In this document: piece by piece, positions 3-24,270 of the stretch
How positions within the stretch are numbered: position 1 is the first letter of the stretch
Layout of the letters: each line of letters starts with the position of its first letter
IMG/VR virus record: IMGVR_UViG_3300037153_000449
Coordinates: 1-24,270 of that record
Origin: a virus
Strand: one strand, 5' to 3'
DNA: 24,270 bases
Translations under genes and position numbers: made by a program
Notes under the pieces: generated by a model
The model's input: the letters and a program-made list of their open reading frames with translations, nothing else
What the model was told of the DNA's origin: nothing
Databases searched by the model: none

Positions 3-101
3 CCGTCGATTTCCCCGCCCCCTCGGGCCGTTCCCGGGCCGATCGGCGTCGTTGCGGCTGATCGTGGCGTGATCCGGGCGGCTCGTCGCAGACTGGGCTG
101 A
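3..101 (+). CDS. C-terminal end of an upstream gene (partial), possibly terminase small subunit
   Basis: One frame is open from the window edge and ends in TGA, sharing one base with the terminase ATG (TGATG), the coupling style used throughout this phage. Only 32 residues are visible, ending in IRAARRLG. No domain can be recognised. The position just before a large terminase is typical for a small terminase subunit, but that is inference from order only. The other two plus frames also run from the edge to stops at about 61 and 72, so the frame choice is uncertain. Confidence 0.3.
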   Translation, partial: PSISPPPRAVPGPIGVVAADRGVIRAARRRLG

Positions 102-1861
102 TGCCGCGACGGGGTTCGCCGTACGGGCCGGGCTATGAGCGGGCCCGGGCCCGGCTGCTGGCGGGGCGGCCGTTGTGCTGGCGGGGGTGTGGGCGGCGGG
201 CGACGGAGCTGGATCATGATCCGCCGCTGGCCCGGCATCGCCATGTGGAGGGTGGCGGGTGTTGTGTGCTGCGGCCGGCGTGTGGGCCGTGTCAGCGTCG
301 GCAGGCCGTCGATTTGGCGAACGAGACCCGCAGCGGCCGGGGTGTGGTGCTCGACGAGGTCGAGGAGGAGGCCGAGCCGGTCGGGTTCGATGTCGACGAG
401 GCGGTGTGGGACGTGGCGTGGTTGGACGAGCTGCGCGAGGTGCCGGGCGACGCGGTGTGGCCGCGGTTGATGACGTTGCCGCATCCGGCGGCGGTCGATT
501 CGCTGGGGGTCGAGTTCGAGTGGTGGGTGCGGGCTCGGACGGGTCGGCGGCTGCGCTGGTTCCAGCGCCTCGTCGTGTGCCGGCTGTTGGAGGTCGATGC
601 CGATGGTCGGCTGGTGTGGGAGTCGGCGGTGTGGTCGATGGCCCGCCAGTTGGGCAAGTCGTGGCTGCTGCGCGAGCTGATCATGTGGCGGCTGCATCAG
701 GGTGAGCGTTTCGGCTGTCCGCAGGAGATCGCGCACATGGCGATGACGGTGCAGCACGCCTTGGACGTGTTGGAGCCGGAGCAGCGTTGGGCCAAGGCGC
801 GCCGCGGGGACTATGCGGTGGGGGAGGCGCACGACGACGAGTCGATCACCCGCATGTTCGACGAGTCGCGGTGGCTGGTCGTGTCGAAGGGGACGAAGCG
901 TTCGGGTGGGGCGTACGGCAAGTCGACGGGGTTGGCGGTGGTCGACGAGGGGTGGGCGGTGCGCGCGGCGGCGGTCGACGACGCGTTGGAGCCGACGACG
1001 GTGGCGATGCCCCAGTCGCAGCTGCTGTTGGTGTCGACGGCGCATCGGATGGCGACGTCGCTGATGCTGGATCGGCGGGCCGCTGCGTTGGCGGCGCTCG
1101 ATGACGGCAGCGACGGTGATCTGATCATCGAGTGGTCGGCGCCGTTCGACGCCGAGCTGGAGGATCGTGAGATGTGGCGGCTGGCGTCGCCGTACTGGAC
1201 GGCGCAACGTGAACGGCTGATCGCCAAGGCGGTGCGGCGTGCCCTGTCGGGGCAGGCGTCGGATGATCCTGACGAGCCGGACCCGGTGCAGGCGGTGCGG
1301 GCGCAATGGCTGAACATCTGGCCGCGCCGGTTGACGGTCGGCGGTGGCGAGCAGCTCGTCGACGTGGCGGCGTGGCGCAGTCTGCGCCGCCCGGCCGAGG
1401 CGTGTGCGGGCCGGTTGTGGGTGGCGGTGGAGGACAACTTCGGGCACGGCGCAGCGGTGGCGGCGGTCGCCGAGCTCGGCGACGACGTGTTCGAGGTCGA
1501 CGGCTGGCTGGCCGCGGATCGGGTCGAGGCGGTCGCCCAGGCCGAGGCGTTGATCGCGGCGCACCCGGCCCCCGCCACGCTGGTGCTCGGCCCGTCGTTG
1601 GATCGGGCACGTCGCACATGTCAGCGGGCCGGGTCGGGCGAGACCCGCTACGGGCTGCCCCTGTTGCGGTCGCTGGTGGCGCAGCGCCGGCTGGTACACG
1701 ACGACACCCCCGAGCTCGACGAGCAGATCGCCGCGGTGCGGGTGCGTCAGGTGATCGGCGGGCTGCACCTTGTCGGTGGGAAGCGGGCCGATCTGGTGCG
1801 GGCGGTGTGCTGGGCGCTGCGCGCCGCGGTGGTGCGCCGCCCCGCCCCGGCGATCCGTTGA
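101..1861 (+). CDS. Terminase large subunit with N-terminal HNH-like domain
   Basis: This is the DNA-packaging motor: an ATPase pumps phage DNA into the prohead and a nuclease cuts it. The ATPase part shows Walker A ARQLGKS (residues 181-187), Walker B LAVVDE (D282, E283) and a coupling motif VSTAHR (311-316). The C-terminal nuclease part has acidic residues at 444-445 (VAVEDN), about 540 and 564, as in RNase H-like terminase nucleases. Residues 22-70 look like a separate HNH endonuclease domain: C26/C30, LDHDPP (H39) and CGPCQRRQ (C61/C64). There is no stop or strong internal start between the two parts, so this reads as a 586-residue fusion. The linker (about 75-115) is acidic. An SD-like purine run lies near 366, but no good in-frame start follows at proper spacing. 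The terminase call is firm; the HNH part is motif-based. Confidence 0.9.
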   Translation: MPRRGSPYGPGYERARARLLAGRPLCWRGCGRRATELDHDPPLARHRHVEGGGCCVLRPACGPCQRRQAVDLANETRSGRGVVLDEVEEEAEPVGFDVDEAVWDVAWLDELREVPGDAVWPRLMTLPHPAAVDSLGVEFEWWVRARTGRRLRWFQRLVVCRLLEVDADGRLVWESAVWSMARQLGKSWLLRELIMWRLHQGERFGCPQEIAHMAMTVQHALDVLEPEQRWAKARRGDYAVGEAHDDESITRMFDESRWLVVSKGTKRSGGAYGKSTGLAVVDEGWAVRAAAVDDALEPTTVAMPQSQLLLVSTAHRMATSLMLDRRAAALAALDDGSDGDLIIEWSAPFDAELEDREMWRLASPYWTAQRERLIAKAVRRALSGQASDDPDEPDPVQAVRAQWLNIWPRRLTVGGGEQLVDVAAWRSLRRPAEACAGRLWVAVEDNFGHGAAVAAVAELGDDVFEVDGWLAADRVEAVAQAEALIAAHPAPATLVLGPSLDRARRTCQRAGSGETRYGLPLLRSLVAQRRLVHDDTPELDEQIAAVRVRQVIGGLHLVGGKRADLVRAVCWALRAAVVRRPAPAIR

Positions 1862-10413: not shown

Positions 10414-12708
10414 ATGGACTCGGCGTTCGAGTTCACGACACGGGCCCGACCCCTCTGCCAGATCGGCATCGGCGACGCCCGCGTCGACACCGGGCTCGCT
10501 ATGTGGGACGTCGCCCGCTGGGACGACCCCGACGCCACCTGGGCGAGCTCGGAGCCGTACTGGCTGGACGTCTCATGCGACACGATCCGTACTGAATGCG
10601 CCTACGGGCGTGCCGCCACCACCGACCGGTTCGTTGCCGGCACCGCCACCGTCATCGTCAACAACGACTCCGGCTGGGCCGACCCCAACACCGTCGACGT
10701 CCCCGGGATCCTGTCGATCCGTCCGGGCCGGGCGATCCGCTTCGGTGTCACCCACATCACGCTCGGCGACTGTTGGGTGTTCCGCGGGTTCATCGACGAC
10801 ATGCAGCCCTCCTATCTGCCCGACGGCACCGACACCGTCGAACTGCACTGCGTCGACGCGCTCGGCGAGGTCAACCGGGCCAAGTTCGTCCCCTACGACG
10901 TCCCGTGGGGTGCCGGCGAGAACGCCACCCAACGCGTCACCCGCATCTTGAACCTGGCGATGTGGCCGGTTGCGAAACGCCAGATCGGGCCGTCGTCGAC
11001 CGCCCTGCTGGGCTCGGACCTGGGCGGACAGGCCGCCGACCTGTTGGGTGTCGTGTCGGAGTCGGTGGGTGGCGCACTGTTCGGCGACCTCGAGGCGAAT
11101 GTCGTGTTCCACGGCCGGGACTGGCAGGCCTACCCGGCGGGTACCCCGCCTGACGGGACGATCGGCAATGTCGACCCGGGCGTGCCCGGCTACTGGATTC
11201 CGGGCACCCCTGAGGTCCCCGCCCATTTGGACACGGCGGCGGGCGTCGTGTCCACCGTCGCCCCGACGGTGCCCGCCGCGCAGCGTCAGGTCACGTCGGA
11301 TCCGGCCGGGGTGACCGTCGTCGACGCCGGTGGGGTGTCGACGATCACCGGCCCGAACGGGCTGCGCTGGGCCCAGTTGGATCAGATCAACCAGCGCCGG
11401 TTCGTGTTCCCCGGGGTGGCTGGGAACTACCTGTCGGTCTCCAACGCCGCCAACCTGAAGATCACCGGTGACATCGAGATCGTGGCGCGCTGCGATGTCA
11501 GGCCCACTGTCTCTGGCGTCATCTACTGCTATGACGGATCACCTCGTGGCTGGAGGCTGTATTACGCCACCAACGGGCAGATCAACTTCAACCCGGCCCT
11601 ACCGGGGACCAGCTACTCCAGTACGGTCGTGCCGGGCACTGCGGGTGCGATGACGTGGATCAAGATGACTCGTGTTGCTGCCAATGGCCTCATCTCGTTC
11701 TATTGGGCGCCCGACAGTCCGACCGAGCCGATGACGTGGACGGCGGCTGGTACCAATAGCTCGACGGCAGGCAACCTGCCGCTCCCGACGACGGGTGTGT
11801 TAGCGACGATCGCGGCTCGGGCCGCTGGTGGTTCGTCCGAGATGTTCGCCGGTCGTATCGCCCGTGTCATCGTCCGTGACGGGATCGCCGGCCCCACCGT
11901 CCTCGACGTCACCGAGTCGGACGCCGCCACCGTCCCCGCCGGCGCCACCAGCTTCACCGCCGGCACCGGCCAAACCGTCACCGTCACCCAAACCGCCGGC
12001 AACACGATCATCCAAGCCCTCCCCGACCAAACCGTGTGGCGGTTCGACGCCAACGACTACCCTGGCAGCGGACTCACCTACACCGACCCCCGCGGCCGAC
12101 AGTGGACCCTCTCCGCCCCCGGCGCCGTCGCCCCGTACCAGCCGGCGACCCCACCCGTGTGGGTGCCGCCCGTCCCCGGCGACGTCTGCCCCACCTCGTG
12201 GACCCGCCCGTTCGACCGCGCCGACATCGCCACCCGCGTCATCCTGGGCCGCGACAACACCACCTTGGACCCGCCATCCGTCCCCATCCAACTCGACGAC
12301 CAGGCCGGCATCGCCCTGTTCGGCATCGAACCGTTCGAACGCACCTACCTGCTCACCCGCGACGACGACGACCTGTACCTGCTCGCCCAACGCATCCTGG
12401 AAACCCGCGGCTACCGCTACCAGCCCCGCGTCCGCACCGTCGACTTCGACGCCGCCACCTCTGACACCGCCCTCGATCTGATGGCCGTCGCCACCCCCTA
12501 CCTGCCGTCCCGCTACCGCTGCCGGCTCCGCTTGGAGCGGGGCGACATCTTCGACGAGGAGATGTTCGTCACCGGCCTCGCCCACGAGATCGAACCGGGC
12601 CGCTGGCACGCCCAATACAACTTGGACTCCGCCGCCCCCTACGCCGTCGCCGACGTCCGCTGGGACACCGCCCACTGGGACCGCGACCGCTGGACGATCG
12701 CCGTCTGA
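10414..12708 (+). CDS. Minor tail protein with lectin-like (LamG) insert
   Basis: This 764-residue protein follows the tape measure, where distal tail or baseplate proteins lie. N-terminal part (1-300): tail-hub-like beta sequence (GTATVIVNNDSGWADP, FRGFIDDMQPSYLPDGTDTV). Middle (about 330-500): a concanavalin A/LamG-like domain (RFVFPGVAGNYLSVSNAANL, GDIEIVARCDV, WIKMTRVAANGLISFYW, FAGRIARVIVRDG), probably binding a surface sugar. C-terminal part (about 535-764): hub-like again. Both ends carry Trp-rich repeats (MWDVARWDD near 30 and RWDTAHWDRDRW at the end). DNA for the lectin part (about 11460-11870) is visibly less GC-rich and less strict at third positions, which suggests later acquisition. 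The ATG lies two bases after the previous stop. Confidence 0.75.
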   Translation: MDSAFEFTTRARPLCQIGIGDARVDTGLAMWDVARWDDPDATWASSEPYWLDVSCDTIRTECAYGRAATTDRFVAGTATVIVNNDSGWADPNTVDVPGILSIRPGRAIRFGVTHITLGDCWVFRGFIDDMQPSYLPDGTDTVELHCVDALGEVNRAKFVPYDVPWGAGENATQRVTRILNLAMWPVAKRQIGPSSTALLGSDLGGQAADLLGVVSESVGGALFGDLEANVVFHGRDWQAYPAGTPPDGTIGNVDPGVPGYWIPGTPEVPAHLDTAAGVVSTVAPTVPAAQRQVTSDPAGVTVVDAGGVSTITGPNGLRWAQLDQINQRRFVFPGVAGNYLSVSNAANLKITGDIEIVARCDVRPTVSGVIYCYDGSPRGWRLYYATNGQINFNPALPGTSYSSTVVPGTAGAMTWIKMTRVAANGLISFYWAPDSPTEPMTWTAAGTNSSTAGNLPLPTTGVLATIAARAAGGSSEMFAGRIARVIVRDGIAGPTVLDVTESDAATVPAGATSFTAGTGQTVTVTQTAGNTIIQALPDQTVWRFDANDYPGSGLTYTDPRGRQWTLSAPGAVAPYQPATPPVWVPPVPGDVCPTSWTRPFDRADIATRVILGRDNTTLDPPSVPIQLDDQAGIALFGIEPFERTYLLTRDDDDLYLLAQRILETRGYRYQPRVRTVDFDAATSDTALDLMAVATPYLPSRYRCRLRLERGDIFDEEMFVTGLAHEIEPGRWHAQYNLDSAAPYAVADVRWDTAHWDRDRWTIAV

Positions 12709-12718
12709 AAGGCACCCT

Positions 12719-13567
12719 ATGGCCACCGTCCCCAACGTCTCCGCCGGCGAACTGATCCAGTCGTCGTGGGGCAACACCGTCGCCAACGAGCTCAACGGCA
12801 ACGTCGTCAAGAAGTCGACGGCGACAACCCAAGCCGTCGCCGGCGCGTTCCAGTCGGCGTCGCTGACCGTCACGCCCGGCGGCGTCAACGTCGCCTCGAC
12901 GATCACCGCTGGCAGCACGATTTCCACACCGGGATCGGTCAACGCCGGTGGCGCGGTGACGGCGACCGGTGCAGTCAGCGCCGGGAGCAGCTCACCCGAC
13001 CCGGGCACCGCCGCCGCCGGTGTGCTCGCCCGCTCCGACGGGGCGATCGTCTCGGTGCTGATCGGTGGGACCGTCCCCGCCAACTTGGGTCTGACCCGTT
13101 CCGGGAGCCCGGCCGGTGACGTCGGCCAAGCCTTCGTCCACTTCCGGCGCACGTCGGCCAACACCCTCATCGGGTCGATCACGATCAGCGGGACCGGCAC
13201 CACCGTCGCCTTCAACACGTCGTCGGACCGGCGCGCCAAACACGACGACGGGCCGATCGTAGACGCCGCCCGCCGTGTCGCCCGGCTCGCCCGCCGCGCG
13301 TTCCGTGGCCGCTGGCGTCCGCTCGGCGACGACGGCGTCCCCGGCGACCCGCCCGCCGACACCACCATCTGGGACCTCCTGTCGTCGCAGGACATCGAAG
13401 ATGTCGCCCCCTACGCGGTCACCGGTGAGCGCGACGCCGTCGACGACGACGGCAACCCGATCTTCCAGCAGGCCGACTATTCCAAGCTCGTCCCGCTGCT
13501 GGTCGCCGCGTTCGGTGAACACGAATCCCGACTGGACGCCCTCGAACACTCTGGAGGTGCCCGATGA
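12719..13567 (+). CDS. Tail fibre with C-terminal S74 intramolecular chaperone
   Basis: The 282-residue protein has a short N-terminal attachment part, a low-complexity beta region rich in Gly, Ala, Ser and Thr (about 45-165), and a C-terminal S74-type chaperone domain starting at SDRRAK (S169-K174). The Ser-Lys dyad of S74 autoproteases (S169, K174) is intact, so self-cleavage after trimer folding is likely. The last residues (LVPLLVAAFGEHESRLDALE) form the usual coiled coil. SD AAGG lies upstream of ATG 12719. This is the probable receptor-binding fibre. The stop overlaps the next ATG. Confidence 0.82.
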   Translation: MATVPNVSAGELIQSSWGNTVANELNGNVVKKSTATTQAVAGAFQSASLTVTPGGVNVASTITAGSTISTPGSVNAGGAVTATGAVSAGSSSPDPGTAAAGVLARSDGAIVSVLIGGTVPANLGLTRSGSPAGDVGQAFVHFRRTSANTLIGSITISGTGTTVAFNTSSDRRAKHDDGPIVDAARRVARLARRAFRGRWRPLGDDGVPGDPPADTTIWDLLSSQDIEDVAPYAVTGERDAVDDDGNPIFQQADYSKLVPLLVAAFGEHESRLDALEHSGGAR

Positions 13568-15789: not shown

Positions 15790-16021
15790 TGCCCTGGCCA
15801 CCCGCTCGACGGTCGACATCATGATCCTGGTGTTGGTGTTCGTCGTCTCCGTGTCGATCCTGGCCACCGGGGCGACCGTCGCGGTGATCGAGATCGCCCA
15901 CCCGGAGTCGGACACGACGACGGTCGTCGAGTCGTTGACGTCGACGATCACCGGGATCATCGGCGCCTTGCTCGGTCTGATCGCCGGCCGCTCCGAAGCG
16001 TCCAAGCCGCCCGGCCCGTGA
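15749..16021 (+). CDS. Small membrane protein of the lysis cassette
   Basis: This 90-residue protein has a basic N-terminus (PRRR), a strong membrane segment at about 23-47, a short Asp/Thr-rich loop and a second weaker span at about 64-80. ATG 15749 is used inside the end of the holin-like gene in another frame. It may be an antiholin, an accessory holin or an unrelated membrane protein. No family was recognised. Confidence 0.55.
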
Positions 16022-16656
16022 CCCCGACGGCGGCGATCGGGACGCTCGCTGTGGCGGCGGCGGTGTCGGGCGGGCTGGTCGCCGCCGTGTTCACCTGGCA
16101 GACCGTCGCCGGGGTCGACACGACACCATCCACCACGACGACGGTGACCGTCGCCGGCCCGCCCGGCCCGCCCGGCCCGCCCGGCCCCGCAGGCGACCGC
16201 GGTCCGGCCGGCCCGCAAGGTGCGCCCGGTCAGGACGCCACCGTGGCGATGGTCGCCGCCGCCGTCGCCGCCTACTGCGCCGACAACGCCTGCCGAGGCC
16301 AGCCCGGCCCGGCCGGCCCGCAGGGCGAGACCGGTCCCGCCGGTCCCGCCGGTGTCGGCATCCCCGGCCCCGCCGGTCCCGCTGGTCCCGCCGGTCCCGC
16401 CGGCAAGGACGGCGCCTCGATTCAGGGCCCATCCGGCCCGGCCGGCCCGGCGGGCGCGGATGGAGTGGGCATCCCTGGCCCGATCGGCCCGCAGGGCGAG
16501 CCGGGCGAGCAGGGGCCGCCGGGGCCGGTCCCGTCGACGTCGACCCCGACGCTCGCCGACCTGTGCCCGGCCGGCACCCAACTCGTCACCATCGACGTCC
16601 ACCAACGCCAACCCGTCGACACCGACCGCACCGTCACCCTCTGCGCCGTCCCCTAA
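16018..16656 (+). CDS. Membrane-anchored collagen-like protein
   Basis: The 212-residue protein starts with one N-terminal hydrophobic segment (about 5-30), then a Thr-rich stretch and two Gly-X-Y collagen-like blocks, about 47-72 and 94-170. The break between them is an Ala-rich helix with two cysteines (C87, C92). A short C-terminal region has two more cysteines (C183, C209). Trimeric triple helix with disulphide links is likely. The GTG start overlaps the previous stop. Being last in the lysis cassette, it may span from membrane into cell wall, or it may be a lysogenic-conversion surface protein. The repetitive DNA (ggtcccgcc units) could change length by slippage. Confidence 0.75.
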
Positions 16657-16676: not shown

Positions 16677-16790
16677 TCACGTGTAGGCGACGAACAGCCA
16701 CAGGCAGATGAGGAAGCCGGCGGCGATGGCCAGCCACAGCCACGTCGACGACCACGGCCCCTTCGGCTCGAGCGGCGGCAGCCCGTTCAC
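16677..16790 (-). CDS. 37-residue single-span membrane protein downstream of the integrase
   Basis: On the minus strand a GTG at 16790-16788 overlaps the integrase stop (GTGA) and reads 37 residues: MNGLPPLEPKGPWSS, then a strong hydrophobic, Trp-rich span (TWLWLAIAAGFLICLWLF) and VAYT. A GGGGA element about six bases before the GTG could be the SD. Coupling to the integrase and a clean membrane segment support a real gene. The role is unknown; superinfection exclusion or toxin-like small membrane proteins expressed in lysogens are possible. Confidence 0.55.
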   Translation of the reverse strand: MNGLPPLEPKGPWSSTWLWLAIAAGFLICLWLFVAYT

Positions 16791-17590
16791 GCCGCGTCCC
16801 CGTACATGGCGTCGATCACCGGGCGGGCCTGCGGATCCCACCCCGAGTAGCCCATCGTCGTGGCGATGTTGGCGTGCCCCATCGTCTTGGCGACTAACAG
16901 CAGGTTGCCGCCGGCGATGCGGGTCATCTCGGTGCCGAACGTGTGCCGCAACTGGTGTGGCGTGCCGACGATCCCCAACGCCCGGAAGTGGCGTCGCACG
17001 ATGTCCCCGATCGTGTCGGGGGTGACCTGGCGGCCGTGGCGGCCGACGATGACAGGACCACGCACCCCGATCCCCTCGAGCAGGCCGGCGAGCATCGGGT
17101 GGATCGGCACGAGCCGGTCCTTGCCGCCCTTGCCGTCACGCACGACGAGCTCGCGGTGGTGCAGCGACACGTCGACGGCGTCCAAGGCGGCGATCTCGGC
17201 GTTGCGCAGCCCGGCGTACATGCCGAGCCCGACGATGCGCCGGGTCCGCAACGGCCCGCAGGCCAGGACGCAGGCGACGGCGTCGTCGGGCAGTGGGCGC
17301 GGCATAGCCCGGGGGACACGCACCCGGTCGACGTCGTCGAGCGGATTGGCGGCCAGGCCGTCGCGGCGCACCGCCCAGGCGTAGAACATCTTGAGGTCGG
17401 AACGGTAGGCGTGACGGGTCTTGGCGTTGCGATGCCGGGCGAGGTACTCCTCGACGTCCTCGGCGCGGGCGGCGTCGAGCGGCAGCGGGTCGATGAAGTC
17501 GCCGAACAGGCGGACGGTGGCCAGGTAGCGTTCGACGGTCTTGGCGGCGAGCCCGCGCGACTGCACGTGGCGCCGGTAACGGTCCAGCAT
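16787..17590 (-). CDS. int: Tyrosine recombinase / integrase
   Basis: This inserts and excises the phage genome at attachment sites. The 267-residue product has an N-terminal SAM-like core-binding domain (about 1-85) and a catalytic domain. Catalytic residues are visible: R129 (AGLRNAEI), K154 or K157 (GKGGKDR), H212 and R215 (HQLRHTFG), H239 (MGHANIATT) and nucleophile Y248 (MGYSG). The start at 17590 is preferred over a start 33 codons earlier because a GAGGGGG SD sits about nine bases upstream and the extra residues look unrelated. The length is short, without an arm-binding domain, like small XerD-type integrases. It is probably co-transcribed with the repressor upstream. Confidence 0.92.
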   Translation of the reverse strand: MLDRYRRHVQSRGLAAKTVERYLATVRLFGDFIDPLPLDAARAEDVEEYLARHRNAKTRHAYRSDLKMFYAWAVRRDGLAANPLDDVDRVRVPRAMPRPLPDDAVACVLACGPLRTRRIVGLGMYAGLRNAEIAALDAVDVSLHHRELVVRDGKGGKDRLVPIHPMLAGLLEGIGVRGPVIVGRHGRQVTPDTIGDIVRRHFRALGIVGTPHQLRHTFGTEMTRIAGGNLLLVAKTMGHANIATTMGYSGWDPQARPVIDAMYGDAA

Positions 17591-17685
17591 GGACTGATTC
17601 CCCCTCGGTGTGATGCCCGCTGGCCCGTCCATCGGCACGTCGACGGTGAGGCAATAGCGACGATCGTGTGACGATCCCAGCCCGC

Positions 17686-17934
17686 TCATGCGGCGACGGC
17701 GAGGACAGCGAGTCCCGGATAGCGCTCGTTACCCGGTGCAGTAGGGCCGGGATCATCTCCGTCGAGCAGCCAGTCGACGGACACGTTCGTGACACCGGCC
17801 CACATCTCGATCACCGGGTAGCTCGGTACATGCGTGCCCGTCTCCCATCCGGCGACCGCTGAACGACTCACGCGCAGCCGTGCCGCCATGTCGGCCTGAC
17901 GTTTCCCGGCGTGCTCGCGGGCCTTGCCGGAAAT
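17686..17934 (-). CDS. Cro/CI-type repressor, probable ATT start
   Basis: This is a short XRE-family DNA-binding protein. From an ATT at 17934 it has 82 residues with all helices of the fold: KAREHAGKRQADMAARLRV then SRSAVAGWETG (recognition helix), and VSVDWLLDG at the end of the domain. The first ATG (17889) would remove helix 1. No ATG, GTG or TTG lies upstream in frame before a stop, so ATT with AGG six bases before it, or a sequence error, is needed. It has no protease-sensitive C-terminal domain. It lies upstream of int in the same direction, facing away from the early operon, and the operator-like repeats overlap its start, as expected for the lysogeny repressor. Confidence 0.75.
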   Translation of the reverse strand: MSGKAREHAGKRQADMAARLRVSRSAVAGWETGTHVPSYPVIEMWAGVTNVSVDWLLDGDDPGPTAPGNERYPGLAVLAVAA

Positions 17935-19587: not shown

Positions 19588-19814
19588 GCGACAACCGCGA
19601 GGAGATCACCATGGACATGAACGGCAACATGAACGGCTCCGAGTTCCGCGCCAACGCCGGACTCATCACCTGGGAACTCCGACTCCCGGGTGCCATCCCC
19701 GCCGAGGTCTGGCCGGTGCTGCGCCGTCTGCAAGCCGCCGCATGCAAGGCGTCGGTGGCGATCGACGCCGCCATCGAGACCGCCCGCGCTGACGAGGTGA
19801 CGGCAGAGCAGTGA
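19584..19814 (+). CDS. Small early protein (76 residues), unknown
   Basis: ATG 19584 overlaps the previous stop, and GGGGACGG just upstream can act as SD. The N-terminal part is rich in Asn, Met and Glu (MDMNGNMNGSEF); the C-terminal part is an Ala-rich helix (RLQAAACKASVAIDAAIETARADE). The middle (LITWELRLPGAIPAEVWPVL) suggests a small ordered domain. No family was recognised. Confidence 0.5.
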   Translation: MSDNREEITMDMNGNMNGSEFRANAGLITWELRLPGAIPAEVWPVLRRLQAAACKASVAIDAAIETARADEVTAEQ

Positions 19815-20698
19815 GCGGCGACGAGAAACCGGACATCGTCTACGGCCGGCTGCTCGAGGCCGCCCACATCTCCGGCTACGGCTTCGATCGGATGACCGAC
19901 GAGCTGTTGTGGTTGCTCGACGGCGACCACTGGCGGCATGTCGGGCCCGGCTACAGCAACGTCAACGAGTTCCTCCGGTCGATCGACATGTCCGCGTTCA
20001 ACATCGCCGACAAGGTGACGTTGCATCGACGGATCCACGAGTTGCAGCCGACGGCCACCGAACGGGCCATCGGCCAGGCCACCGGGACTCCCAAGAGCAC
20101 CGTGCATCGCGACCTTGCCCCAGATGGGGCAACCAACACGCCAGAGGTCGCTTCTGAGCAGGTTGAACCCAGTCAGCTTGCCCCAGATGGGGCAGCCAAC
20201 ACACCACATGTCACTCGCAACAGCGGGCAGGACGAGTGGTACACGCCGCCCGAGCTCACTCACGCCGCCCGTGACGTGCTCGGCGTCATCGACTTGGACC
20301 CGGCCTCGAGCGAGGCCGCCAATCGCACCGTCAAGGCAGCCCGGTTCTACACCGTCGACGACGACGGGCTCGCCCAGGACTGGAAGGGCCGGGTGTGGAT
20401 GAACCCGCCGTACTCGACCGGGGTGGTCGACCGGTTCGTGTTCAAGCTGCTCGACGTCTTCCAGTCGGGCGACGTGCCCGCGGCGGTGGTGCTGACGAAC
20501 AACGCCACCGACACACGCTGGTGGCAGGCGCTCGCCCGGCGCAGCGCAGCGGTGTGCATGGTCGCCGGCCGGGTCCGTTTCCGCGCCGCGTCCGGTGAGG
20601 TCGCCGGCGCCGGGCTGCAGGGCCAGTCGGTGTGCTACCTCGGCGACCACGTCAGCACGTTCACCGAGCGGTTCCGCGAGTTCGGAGTCGTGCTGTGA
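19811..20698 (+). CDS. Phage DNA N6-adenine methyltransferase (Dam-like) with N-terminal HTH region
   Basis: The 295-residue protein ends in a phage N6-adenine methyltransferase domain (about 139-295): DEWYTP (141-146), DLDPAS (161-166), the catalytic NPPY (198-201) and the conserved tail LQGQSVCYLGDHVSTFTERF. It would methylate adenine in phage DNA, possibly against host restriction. The N-terminal region (about 10-102) is helical and ends in an HTH-like TERAIGQATGTPKSTVHRDL. The linker (103-138) has two repeats of LAPDGA-NTP whose DNA forms two hairpins. It is coupled to the previous gene. Methylated target site unknown. Confidence 0.85.
   Translation: MSGDEKPDIVYGRLLEAAHISGYGFDRMTDELLWLLDGDHWRHVGPGYSNVNEFLRSIDMSAFNIADKVTLHRRIHELQPTATERAIGQATGTPKSTVHRDLAPDGATNTPEVASEQVEPSQLAPDGAANTPHVTRNSGQDEWYTPPELTHAARDVLGVIDLDPASSEAANRTVKAARFYTVDDDGLAQDWKGRVWMNPPYSTGVVDRFVFKLLDVFQSGDVPAAVVLTNNATDTRWWQALARRSAAVCMVAGRVRFRAASGEVAGAGLQGQSVCYLGDHVSTFTERFREFGVVL
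20115..20194 (+). repeat. Two hairpin-forming direct repeats inside the methyltransferase linker
   Basis: TTGCCCC-AGAT-GGGGCAA (20115-20132) and TGCCCC-AGAT-GGGGCA (20179-20194) are near-identical inverted repeats 64 bases apart, within a longer direct repeat that codes LAPDGA(T/A)NTP twice. They may only be a duplicated linker, or they may be DNA or RNA binding sites. Confidence 0.6.
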
Positions 20699-21021
20699 GA
20701 CAGCGCCGCTTTGTCGCCGGTCAGCAGTTCGTGGCTGGTGGCGTCCAGTTCCGAGTCGCCAGTGGGAGCAAGGGTTCCGGCGATCTGCGCCTCGACTGGT
20801 GTGTCGGTGGTGACTGGCAACCGGTCCTGCTCGATGCCGTCTTCGCTGTCGTCGACATGGTCGCCGAGAACGAGGACCGACTGTTCCCCTATCCGGCCAA
20901 GGGTGGCGAGGAGACGATGCGGTATCTCCGCATCGCGCGCATCCAGGGCTGGCAGGAGGCGTCACGTCTGTTGCATCTCGCCCGGGTGAGCCGGCATCGC
21001 GAGCAGGAGTTCACAGCATGA
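20695..21021 (+). CDS. Early protein (108 residues), unknown
   Basis: GTG 20695 overlaps the methyltransferase stop. The N-terminal half is beta-rich with repeated QFVAGG and VQFRVASG-like segments; the C-terminal half is helical (FAVVDMVAENEDRLF, TMRYLRIARIQGWQEASRLL). The third positions are less GC-rich than in neighbours in the first 100 bases. No known family was recognised. It precedes the RecT-like gene, to which it is coupled by ATGA overlap. Confidence 0.5.
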   Translation: MRQRRFVAGQQFVAGGVQFRVASGSKGSGDLRLDWCVGGDWQPVLLDAVFAVVDMVAENEDRLFPYPAKGGEETMRYLRIARIQGWQEASRLLHLARVSRHREQEFTA

Positions 21022-21905
21022 CCGCGGAGATCGCTGGTGCGGCCGGGGCGGGGGGGACCCCGGCCGCGCCCGCCGACCGTACGGGCGAGTCCGTGGGTGC
21101 GGTCACAGCTGGGGAGCTGGCGGCCGCACCCACACCCGCCGCGGTGCCCGACAAGGTGTCACCAGGCAAGAGCCCACGGGCGCAGGCGTACAACGAGCTG
21201 TACTCGTTGGCCCGGCTGACGACGAACACGGCGATGGTCCCCCGCCCACTCCGCGGCCGCCCCGACGAGGCGTTCGCCGTGATGGTGTACGGCGCCGAGC
21301 TCGGCCTCGAACCGATGGCGGCGATGCGGTCGATCTTCCTGATCGAAGGCCAACCGACATGCTCGGCGCAGCTGATGCGCGCCCTCATCCAAGCCGCCGG
21401 CCACATGCTCGCCTGGCGCGAGGTCGGCGAGTCCCGGGTCGTGCTGTACGGGCGGCGTCGTGACACCGGCGCCGACACCACCGTCACCTGGACGCTCGAC
21501 GACGCGCGACGGGCGAAGCTGGCCGGCAAGGGCAACTGGGCGACCTACCCCCGGGCCATGCTCGCCGCCCGGGCCACCTCGGAGATCGCCCGGCTGCTGT
21601 TCGCCGACGTCCTCCACGGCATCGCCTACACCCCCGAGGAGGTCGGCGCGGTCGGCCCGTACGCGGCGATCGACGTCGACTGGCAACCACCCGACGACGA
21701 CGACGACTCGCAGCTGCGTTACGTGAATCGGGACACCGGCGAAGTGTTCGACGACGACACCCCCGCCCACGTCGTCCAGGCCGCCGTGTTGGACGCCGAA
21801 GACGCGATGGACGCCGAGTGGCTGGCCGAAGCCCGGGCCGATCCGGGCGACACGGTCGACGGCCGTGTCGCCCAAGCCGACCTCGACCTGGAAGGGGACG
21901 ATTGA
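21018..21905 (+). CDS. RecT-like single-strand annealing protein (putative)
   Basis: The 295-residue protein has a disordered Ala/Pro-rich N-terminus (1-50), then a region resembling RecT-type annealing proteins of actinophages: ELYSLARLTTNTAMVPRPLRG, FAVMVYGAELGLEPMAAMRS, GQPTCSAQLMRALIQAAGH, KGNWATYPRAMLAARATSEIARLLF and YTPEEVG. The C-terminal tail is very acidic, typical for ssDNA-binding and annealing proteins. It probably works with the VRR-NUC nuclease upstream in phage recombination or replication repair. No exonuclease partner of the usual RecE/YqaJ type is in the window. The family call is from recalled pattern, so moderate. Confidence 0.62.
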   Translation: MTAEIAGAAGAGGTPAAPADRTGESVGAVTAGELAAAPTPAAVPDKVSPGKSPRAQAYNELYSLARLTTNTAMVPRPLRGRPDEAFAVMVYGAELGLEPMAAMRSIFLIEGQPTCSAQLMRALIQAAGHMLAWREVGESRVVLYGRRRDTGADTTVTWTLDDARRAKLAGKGNWATYPRAMLAARATSEIARLLFADVLHGIAYTPEEVGAVGPYAAIDVDWQPPDDDDDSQLRYVNRDTGEVFDDDTPAHVVQAAVLDAEDAMDAEWLAEARADPGDTVDGRVAQADLDLEGDD

Positions 21906-22207: not shown

Positions 22208-22662
22208 ACCGTCTCGCCGCGACCGTCGTGTCGCTGGCCGTGCTGTGCGGCTGCACACCCCGTGAGGTCGAGCTGTGGACGGCCTGGCATGCCAAGGACC
22301 CGGCCGCCGCCGAAGAGTTCGCGCACAGCCTGGCGAACCGAACAGAACAACAGCCGGCCGGCCGGGACGGCTGTGACGGGATCTACGACGAGATGATCCG
22401 CCAAGGCGCCAACGCCGGCGTCGCGCAACGCTTCGCCTACCGCATCGCCCCCCGCGAATCAGGCTGCCACCCACAGTTCGTCCACGACCGCGACGACTGG
22501 TCGTACTCCCGGTTCGGGCTGAACGGGCTCACCGCCGGGCTGCGAGCGAACTGGCGGGCATGGTGCGGCGCCGACGTCCGCTCCGACACCCGGGTGCTGT
22601 CCACCGACGTGGCCTGCGCACTCGCCGCGTACCACCGGATGGGCTGGCAGCCATGGAACTGA
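22204..22662 (+). CDS. Lipoprotein with lysozyme/transglycosylase-like domain
   Basis: The 152-residue product starts with a lipoprotein-type signal peptide (MNRLAATVVSLAVLCGC; lipidated Cys probably C17, though Cys at -2 is unusual). The mature part resembles a lysozyme-like SLT domain: AYRIAPRESGCHP with the probable catalytic E85, then DWSYSRFGLNG and ACALAAYHRMGWQPW. It would act at the outer face of the membrane on peptidoglycan. The early location, far from the lysis cassette, suggests a role other than lysis, such as blocking superinfection or wall remodelling. It is coupled to the gene before by ATGA overlap. Confidence 0.6.
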   Translation: MNRLAATVVSLAVLCGCTPREVELWTAWHAKDPAAAEEFAHSLANRTEQQPAGRDGCDGIYDEMIRQGANAGVAQRFAYRIAPRESGCHPQFVHDRDDWSYSRFGLNGLTAGLRANWRAWCGADVRSDTRVLSTDVACALAAYHRMGWQPWN

Positions 22663-22697
22663 CCGCCGGCAAGCACCGCAAACGAGACCGGCGATGA
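22653..22697 (+). CDS. Possible 14-residue coupling ORF
   Basis: ATG 22653, overlapping the end of the lipoprotein gene, reads MELTAGKHRKRDRR and stops in an ATGA overlap with the next start. It may be a leader or coupling ORF only; such a short reading frame can also be chance. Confidence 0.2.
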   Translation: MELTAGKHRKRDRR

Positions 22698-22859
22698 CCG
22701 CGCTCACGCTGCCGGGGATCGACGTCGGCCCGTGGCAGGTCCGCAACCACCGCGATCGAGCCGCGAACGCCCTCGCCGACCGCCACTACTCACGTCGCCG
22801 GCGCCTACGAGTGCGCCCGGTGCCGACGCCCCACCCACCTCCGATCGGAAGACACATGA
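22694..22859 (+). pseudogene. Broken gene: head of a 'NALADRHYSR' family protein joined out of frame to a zinc-ribbon tail
   Basis: From ATG 22694 the frame reads 36 plausible residues (LPGIDVGPWQVRNHRDRAAN, then ALADRHYSRR) that match the beginning of an actinophage protein family I recall as much longer. The frame then becomes basic low-complexity sequence, running on as a shadow of the next gene. Another frame from about 22790 reads HVAGAYECARCRRPTHLRSEDT and stops at 22857-22859, four bases before the next ATG; it has a CxxC pair and looks like the end of a different small protein but has no start. The simplest reading is an internal deletion that fused two genes out of frame. Confidence 0.5.
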
Positions 22860-22862
22860 ACG

Positions 22863-23231
22863 ATGGCCGGTCCGCAATGGGTCCGTCTGGACGTCGCCTA
22901 CTTCTCCAACCCGAAAGTGTTACGGGCCGGCAAGGACGCCGCCCTGATGCATCTGGCCGCCGTCTGCTACCTCGGCGCCCACGAGATGGACGACGGCATC
23001 CTGCCGGCCGAAGCTGTCCCCGTCCTGGCCGCCCTGGTCAGGGTGCAACGCCCCGGCGAGGTCGTGGACCGGCTGATGAAGCACGGCCTGTGGCATCGGG
23101 CCGACGACGGCGGATACATCATCCACGACTACGACGTGATGAACGGCGCCCGCTCAGAAGCTGCGGCAGCACGCCGACGGCAACGCGACCGGCGGGCCAG
23201 ACAGCTCACCGAACAAGAACAAACAGCGTGA
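22863..23231 (+). CDS. Replication-initiator-like winged-helix protein
   Basis: The 122-residue product begins with the typical opening of phage replication initiator or organiser proteins: WVRLDVAYFSNPKVLRAGKDAALMHL, then DGILPAEAVPVLA, LMKHGLWHRADDGGYIIHDY. It ends with a basic, helical tail (AAARRRQRDRRARQ) likely to touch DNA. It is shorter than many relatives, having only the N-terminal domain. The repeat-rich stretch right after it is a candidate origin, which fits the role. Confidence 0.65.
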   Translation: MAGPQWVRLDVAYFSNPKVLRAGKDAALMHLAAVCYLGAHEMDDGILPAEAVPVLAALVRVQRPGEVVDRLMKHGLWHRADDGGYIIHDYDVMNGARSEAAAARRRQRDRRARQLTEQEQTA

Positions 23232-23314
23232 CAAACACCGTGACATGTCACGCCTCCGGTCACGGGGATGTTCGGCGCACGGACGGACGGACGTACGGAC
23301 GGACGTACGGACGT
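23227..23314. repeat. Repeat cluster next to the initiator gene, candidate origin of replication
   Basis: CGTGACA occurs at 23227-23233 and 23239-23245, and in reverse (TGTCACG) at 23246-23252; the last two form the perfect 14-bp palindrome CGTGACATGTCACG. A related GGTCACGG follows at 23259. Then nine copies of the tetramer ACGG/ACGT run from 23279 to 23314 without a break. The stretch is non-coding on the plus strand, directly after a replication-initiator-like gene, and leads into an AT-richer patch (CTTAAGAACCTCTTCATC). Confidence 0.5.
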
Positions 23315-23327
23315 CTTAAGAACCTCT

Positions 23328-23351
23328 TCATCTGAGAGATGAGTCTCTGTG
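23328..23351 (+). promoter_or_regulatory. Two mutually exclusive hairpins over a start codon
   Basis: TCATCT/AGATGA (23328-23333 with 23337-23342, loop GAG) and AGAGA/TCTCT (23335-23339 with 23344-23348, loop TGAG) overlap and cannot form together. The second ends directly at the GTG start 23349. No normal SD is seen upstream; GAGAG lies inside the stems. A switch of translation is possible, though stems are short. Confidence 0.35.
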
Positions 23352-23768
23352 ACTGACACCGAAGCAACGACACTGATCGCCCGGATCAAGCACACCTGGC
23401 GAGGCGGACCGCACCCCGACATCTGGCGAGAAGTGCTACTCGATCTCGACGCCGGAACAGCCGGCACCACCATCGTCCGCCTCGCCCGCGAACACGACGA
23501 CCCGCCCACCATCGCCCTGTTCATCCGCACCTACCGCAGCCTCGACACCGCCGCCAACGACCCCGTCTCCCCACCACCGCCCGTCGGCTGCCCCATCTGC
23601 CAACCGCATGACCGCGACACCGGCCACTGGGACGGCTGTCCCAACCAGCCGATCCCGTTCGACGACCCACGAGCACAGGCCGCCTTCCGGGCCGGCCACC
23701 GCCAAAGCCAACACGAACTGTGGGACATGTCCGACGGCCGAGCCGGCACCCCACCCGAGGAGTTCTGA
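23349..23768 (+). CDS. Early protein with Cys/His cluster, possibly replication related
   Basis: The 139-residue product has an N-terminal helical region (EATTLIARIKHTW, then GGPHPDIWREVLLDLDAGTAGT, PPTIALFIRTYRSLDT) similar in style to a domain seen in actinophage replication genes after the initiator. A zinc-binding-like cluster CPICQPHDRDTGHWDGCPNQ follows at about 80-98. Location after the candidate origin fits a helicase-loader or accessory role, which is not proven. Start GTG 23349. Confidence 0.55.
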   Translation: MTDTEATTLIARIKHTWRGGPHPDIWREVLLDLDAGTAGTTIVRLAREHDDPPTIALFIRTYRSLDTAANDPVSPPPPVGCPICQPHDRDTGHWDGCPNQPIPFDDPRAQAAFRAGHRQSQHELWDMSDGRAGTPPEEF

Positions 23769-23770
23769 CC

Positions 23771-24270
23771 ATGGGCACTGAACCGCCGTTCAAATCCCGG
23801 TTCCTGCTCGGCACCCACCAACCGACCTGGCTGCGCCACGTCGACATCCCACTGTTCGTCTCCCACACCCGACTCCACCGGCAACGCCGACTCCCACGCG
23901 CCCACTGCCAATGGGCGCTCGACTCCGGCGCATTCTCCGAGATCGCCATCCACGGCGAATACCGCACCACACCCCGCCAGTACGCCACCGCCGTCGCCCG
24001 CTACCGCGACGAGATCGGCAACCTCGACTGGGCCGCCCCACAAGACCACATGTGCGAACCATCGGTACTCGCCCGCTCCAACATCGCAGGCACCGTGACC
24101 GAAGCACAGGACTGGACCGTCCGGAACGTTCTCACGCTGCGTTCCCTCGACCCCGACCTGCCAATCATCCCGGTGTTGCAAGGCCAGACACTCGCCGACT
24201 ACCGGCGACACGTCGACGCCTACAACCGGGCCGGGCTCGAAGGTTTTTCTGGCTGTCGACCCCGCAGGAC
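23771..24270 (+). CDS. TGT/DpdA-like transglycosylase family protein (partial, runs off the window)
   Basis: The first 166 residues are present. They carry landmarks of the queuine tRNA-ribosyltransferase superfamily: WALDSGAFSE with D51 (DSGGFQ motif of TGT), WAAPQDHMCEP with D92, and IIPVLQGQT (VQGG-like motif, Q137-G138). The opening FLLGTHQPTWLRHVDIPLFVS resembles phage TGT-like proteins of the DpdA type, which swap guanine for 7-deazaguanine derivatives in DNA. No preQ0 biosynthesis genes are in the window, so the base would come from the host or from genes beyond the edge. The last 25 bases, after a TTTTT run, no longer read like the family (GCRPRR); an indel there is possible. ATG 23771 is two bases after the previous stop. 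Confidence 0.65.
   Translation, partial: MGTEPPFKSRFLLGTHQPTWLRHVDIPLFVSHTRLHRQRRLPRAHCQWALDSGAFSEIAIHGEYRTTPRQYATAVARYRDEIGNLDWAAPQDHMCEPSVLARSNIAGTVTEAQDWTVRNVLTLRSLDPDLPIIPVLQGQTLADYRRHVDAYNRAGLEGFSGCRPRR

Follow-up and report, generated by a model that had tools for sequence, protein, structure and literature searches.

The DNA analysed here (the window) is an entire IMG/VR record of 24,270 bases, and it carries a dpdA-like gene at its right end. The open reading frame starts with an ATG at position 23771 on the + strand, is preceded by a GAGGAG stretch, and stays open up to the contig end at 24270; the gene runs off the edge, as the preliminary description had stated. At the other end of the window lies the gene for the terminase large subunit (101..1861, + strand; phrog_9, E 3.6e-29), which is 66% identical to positions 11202-12908 of a related viral record, G001. 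This record also holds the closest full-length relative of the dpdA product (L001).

Other genes of the window include a tyrosine integrase (16787..17689, − strand; PF00589, E 1.8e-20), a Dam-type DNA adenine methyltransferase (19811..20698, + strand; PF05869, E 1.9e-19; phrog_111), a RecT-like annealing protein (21018..21905, + strand; PF03837, E 5.9e-8; phrog_4171) with homologues near dpdA in L001 and L006, and a replication-initiation-like protein (22863..23231, + strand; phrog_3926, E 1.2e-18). The 139-aa gene directly upstream of dpdA (23349..23768, + strand) has no PHROG match and is weakly similar to L001 10637-10810 (34% over 59 aa). A collagen-like repeat protein (16018-16656; PF01391, E 5.5e-13) is encoded between the endolysin and integrase genes. 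A frame of 213 aa at 22694-23335 was rejected as a gene, as it is mostly non-coding and the likely gene in this region is 22863-23231. Within 22694-22800, a short ORF start is present (MTALTLPGIDVGPWQVRNHRDRAANALADRHYSRR) and coding character is then lost, possibly marking a remnant or frameshifted gene. Judging from the integrase gene, the phage is temperate, and since its capsid and portal proteins most resemble those of mycobacteriophages, an actinomycete host is likely. Two layers of DNA protection had been suggested for this phage; the Dam-type methyltransferase gene exists, while the idea of two layers is conjecture.

The 5′ part of the dpdA-like gene (23771..24240, + strand), about 157 codons, can be aligned with relatives before the gene is cut by the contig end. 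Nearly all tblastn alignments of the product end at residue 157 (160 in one case), and the contig tip (24241..24270, + strand) has no match in any relative, none of its 14-mers recurring in four viral relatives or anywhere else in the window. Because these last ~30 bases match no relative while the relatives continue with a DL...VGxGSVCRR stretch at the point of divergence, the tip is probably unreliable as sequence and likely represents an assembly or low-coverage end. Relatives have the SADS motif, with the expected nucleophile Asp, and a Cys-rich motif; in the window gene both would lie beyond the contig end. No continuation of the same phage turned up in viral_contigs when the dpdA end was searched as an exact pattern.

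The 166-aa product matches the Pfam family DpdA (PF23859) over residues 8-157, with an E value of 8.6e-47 and 159.9 bits against a curated cut-off of 27, and also PHROG 1279 (E 4.5e-50), while NCBIfam and PADLOC searches gave no match. Of the 398 phage records that it matched by tblastn, 391 are mycobacteriophages. In PHROGs and in many phage records, the protein is labelled queuine tRNA-ribosyltransferase. The syntenic viral relative L001 is 70% identical over 148 residues, and a comparison of the two genes (dN 0.25, dS 0.60; dN/dS ~0.4) shows the substitution pattern of purifying selection. As a whole, these similarities greatly exceed what chance would give.

The three motifs on which membership of the transglycosylase superfamily had been proposed lie where they were placed, all on the + strand: DSGAF (23921..23935, with D51), PQD (24038..24046, with D92) and PVLQG (24170..24184, with Q137). 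The D, S, G and F columns of the first, the D of the second, and the P, Q and G of the third are invariant among 14 relatives. Profile alignment to E. coli TGT, in which the overall score is weak, maps these residues to D89 (D43 in L001), D143 and Q187, so that the first three TGT-type residues are present in the window gene. In E. coli TGT, the catalytic and recognition residues are D89, D143, Q187, the nucleophile D264 and the Zn ligands. The superfamily assignment is borne out by the Pfam match and by the profile comparison and fold described below.

In profile-profile comparison, the PF23859 subfamily joins the DpdAs of 9g/CAjan/Rosebush type (E 2.3e-8), with ~23% identity and the same motif order, in agreement with the DpdA label given to the gene earlier. 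The corresponding value against TGT was 0.15, using a TGT profile built from just two sequences, and the motif residues coincide. The proven 9g/CAjan/Rosebush-type DpdAs give no match to PF23859 and therefore the Pfam name alone does not transfer function.

The fold was modelled with AlphaFold for the full-length L001 protein (nine aligned sequences; pLDDT 88.5). The sole Foldseek match below E 0.001 was a tRNA TGT, and VIA-align gave Z scores of 18.4 for archaeosine TGT, ~18 for Zymomonas TGT, and 18.0 (231 residues, 13% identity) for the bacterial DNA preQ0 insertase DpdA of dpd islands (7UI4). On this model, a TGT-type TIM-barrel fold can be regarded as settled for the DpdA family of the window. 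The modelled fold matches tRNA TGTs and the DNA insertase equally, and so does not distinguish a DNA from a tRNA substrate. A PDB sequence search with the family profile found no TGT, the relationship being revealed by fold comparison alone. No dpdB-K gene was seen in the annotation of the window.

G001 is collinear with the window across the packaging, head, tail and recombination genes, although opened at another point. It carries an integrase, RecT and a lone dpdA, followed by the terminase gene ~2 kb downstream. Its ends form an imperfect direct terminal repeat (L017 1-169 and L018 4419-4587, the latter at 22419-22587 of the record), and because they share 167 of 169 bases, G001 is probably the complete genome of a temperate actinophage of ~22.4 kb, even though IMG/VR does not class it as complete. 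As the terminase gene opens the window and dpdA closes it, we infer from the spacing in this one relative that the genome lacks just ~0.3-1.5 kb here, a stretch too short to hold a preQ0 operon.

Profiles of QueC, QueD and FolE found no match in the window, G001, G006 or G007, and tblastn with phage QueC, QueD, QueE and FolE found none in the window. The absence of visible preQ0 genes, already remarked on from the sequence, thus extends to the collinear and apparently complete G001 (QueC, QueD and FolE profiles). TGT and VUT profiles had no match in G001, G006 or G007, and YhhQ none in the window by tblastn; the upstream neighbour of dpdA is not a VUT gene, and the window ends before the downstream side of dpdA. 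Validus gp41 was considered as a hidden transporter and set aside, having no Pfam match. Any base used by the DpdA of this phage would have to come from outside the phage. QueC profile matches in four actinomycete host genomes (three with E ~2e-4, and one of 8e-11 in Actinomadura) were not taken as preQ0 synthases, since they are partial and lie inside frames of 545-646 aa.

Bacterial relatives of the gene show a different setting. In E. coli, YhhQ is reported to be a preQ0 transporter (PMC5372724), and YhhQ-type (VUT) genes accompany dpdA in the Pseudonocardiaceae. Across 297 genomes of this family, DpdA was found in 73, VUT in 49 and both in 46 (Fisher p 3.8e-31, a statistic that ignores shared ancestry), and of the 56 VUT matches, 45 immediately precede dpdA on the same strand. 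Only 5 of the 297 genomes have a tRNA TGT. Two Amycolatopsis genomes carry dpdA but lack TGT, and the single VUT/YhhQ match of each is found immediately before dpdA. A distinct TGT-family protein of 342 aa occurs in G840, G893, G909, G917 and G924 (Pseudonocardiaceae), although the family has no TGT apart from these; the one compared has 30% identity to the E. coli enzyme. Across the class, PF23859 DpdA was present in 8 of 297 genomes, and in the Streptomyces family in 28 of 395; about a quarter of the sampled Pseudonocardiaceae species carry it, ~10 times the rate in the class.

Many of these loci are cassettes with a recurring gene order: an N4/N6 methyltransferase (PF01555), an m5C methyltransferase (PF00145), a PAPS-reductase-like protein (phrog_424), VUT (PF02592), DpdA (PF23859), an excisionase-like gene (HTH_17) and a recombinase (integrase or serine recombinase). 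Examples are L121, L129, L143, L139 and other Pseudonocardiaceae loci, and L031 on an Embleya plasmid; dpdA is beside VUT on this plasmid and also in Sinorhizobium phage phiLM21. The m5C methyltransferase gene accompanies 22 of 32 VUT loci, compared to 3 of 69 others. On Streptomyces plasmids, a Mom-family gene (PF25680) directly follows dpdA and overlaps its stop (L032 5762-6448, L034 5753-6442, L035 5738-6703), so that two genes for DNA hypermodification form a single unit. The cassettes of the Pseudonocardiaceae integrative elements belong to the same PF23859 subfamily as the window gene; unlike them, the phage and its relatives show neither VUT nor a PAPS-reductase-like partner.

Previously, YhhQ showed no correlation with any phage group (Hutinet et al. 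2019, PMC6884629), and a 2025 preprint found it in ~9% of dpdAB islands. The open-access papers searched contained no report of a methyltransferase-VUT-DpdA cassette, although one may exist elsewhere. What is new here is the tight pairing of DpdA with VUT in the Pseudonocardiaceae. Because dpdA pairs with a YhhQ-type transporter in a family where tRNA TGT is nearly absent, the lone DpdAs of the PF23859 subfamily probably use a scavenged base.

In phylogenetic trees, the window protein groups with L001, L002 and L007 in a viral clade of good support (100/98); the mycobacteriophage proteins belong to another clade (96/86). A sister relationship between the window clade and the transporter-linked clade had a support of 91 in a quick tree and is not claimed, as the careful tree does not uphold it; the AU test did not reject it (p 0.41).

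The singleton DpdAs of mycobacteriophage clusters K and B1 belong to the same Pfam family (48-51% identity to the window protein) and, as in the window, have no preQ0 genes nearby, although the window protein falls in a separate viral clade. One phage with this type of DpdA is Orion, a B1 (Pegunavirus) phage like UncleHowie. Hutinet et al. (2019) placed such proteins in their third group; phages with DpdA and without preQ0 genes were the largest group in that study (76 phages; PMC6884629). Orion, the one tested phage of the singleton type, showed no 7-deazaguanine above detection (PMC6884629), but its host has no preQ0 pathway genes (PMC6884629), and so the assay does not measure the enzyme. 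Rosebush, which carries its own queC/D/E and folE, has ~28% of G replaced (PMC6884629). Phages of the 9g/CAjan/Rosebush type make their own preQ0 (folE-queD-queE-queC), unlike the window phage, and the queC/D/E-folE operon was seen in a Rosebush-group phage.

The reading we favour, with some reserve, is that the gene encodes a lone PF23859 DpdA, a base-exchange enzyme of TGT fold that inserts 7-deazaguanine supplied by the host cell. The enzyme would remove guanine and insert a 7-deazaguanine base, with DNA as the probable target. The phage would make none of this base and would rely on what is present in the cell, either a product of the host or brought in by a YhhQ-type transporter that the host or a resident mobile element encodes, and modification of the phage genome would be conditional on this supply. 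We infer that the enzyme acts on DNA, which base it inserts, where this phage obtains it, and that the modification protects against restriction. Standing against this reading are the lack of 7-deazaguanine in Orion, the lack of a visible transporter gene in the phage and its closest relatives, a host that may have no preQ0 source, the missing tree support for a sister relationship to the transporter-linked clade, a fold that suits tRNA and DNA substrates alike, and a contig that ends before the catalytic half of the gene. The preliminary description suggested that the phage DNA is 7-deazaguanine-modified: the superfamily and the DpdA label are supported, whereas the modification is not established, Orion being negative and the subfamily remote from the proven DpdAs, and it is best described as plausible.

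A rather unlikely alternative is a folded, selected enzyme that does not insert 7-deazaguanine in its natural host, and uses another base or has another role, such as guanine removal. This would fit the unmodified DNA of Orion and the hundreds of mycobacteriophages that keep dpdA though their laboratory host has no pathway (PMC6884629), but the transporter pairing points to imported 7-deazaguanine and the catalytic-motif residues are conserved. Less probable again is a tRNA-guanine transglycosylase whose modification of host tRNA (queuosine-type) benefits the phage. The database labels and the tie in fold with tRNA TGTs (Z 18) agree with it, but no match to the tRNA TGT profile PF01702 was found at E <= 0.001 in the window, nor in the records of relatives, and genes of the PF23859 family are located on phages, plasmids and integrative elements, in many cases next to those for DNA methyltransferases, so that a true tRNA TGT is unlikely. 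Clustering with true tRNA enzymes had been raised as the contrary case to a DpdA, and the nearest profiles are those of DNA-acting DpdAs, not TGTs. That the gene is decaying or truncated and has no function is very improbable: the frame departs from all relatives after codon ~157, but the departure falls exactly in the contig's final 30 bases, dN/dS against L001 is ~0.4, and every motif in the sequenced part is intact. The gene is a real one under selection and is probably functional, a lone dpdA of a small temperate phage with a likely actinomycete host.

The window gene itself is of modest novelty, and the transporters and methyltransferases encoded around its relatives are of greater interest. 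Hutinet et al. (2019) left open the function of the lone DpdA group, as no base source was seen; the transporter pairing offers a concrete one, import. A broader and more doubtful proposal is that PF23859 DpdAs are a scavenging branch, in which the cassettes of actinomycete elements import and write the base without a queuosine tRNA enzyme, and small phages carry the writer only and use base from the host or from such elements. If the base is indeed imported, the Pseudonocardiaceae importer would work for DNA and not for tRNA, and whether many actinophages are modified would vary with the supply of base and go unseen in laboratory hosts such as M. smegmatis.
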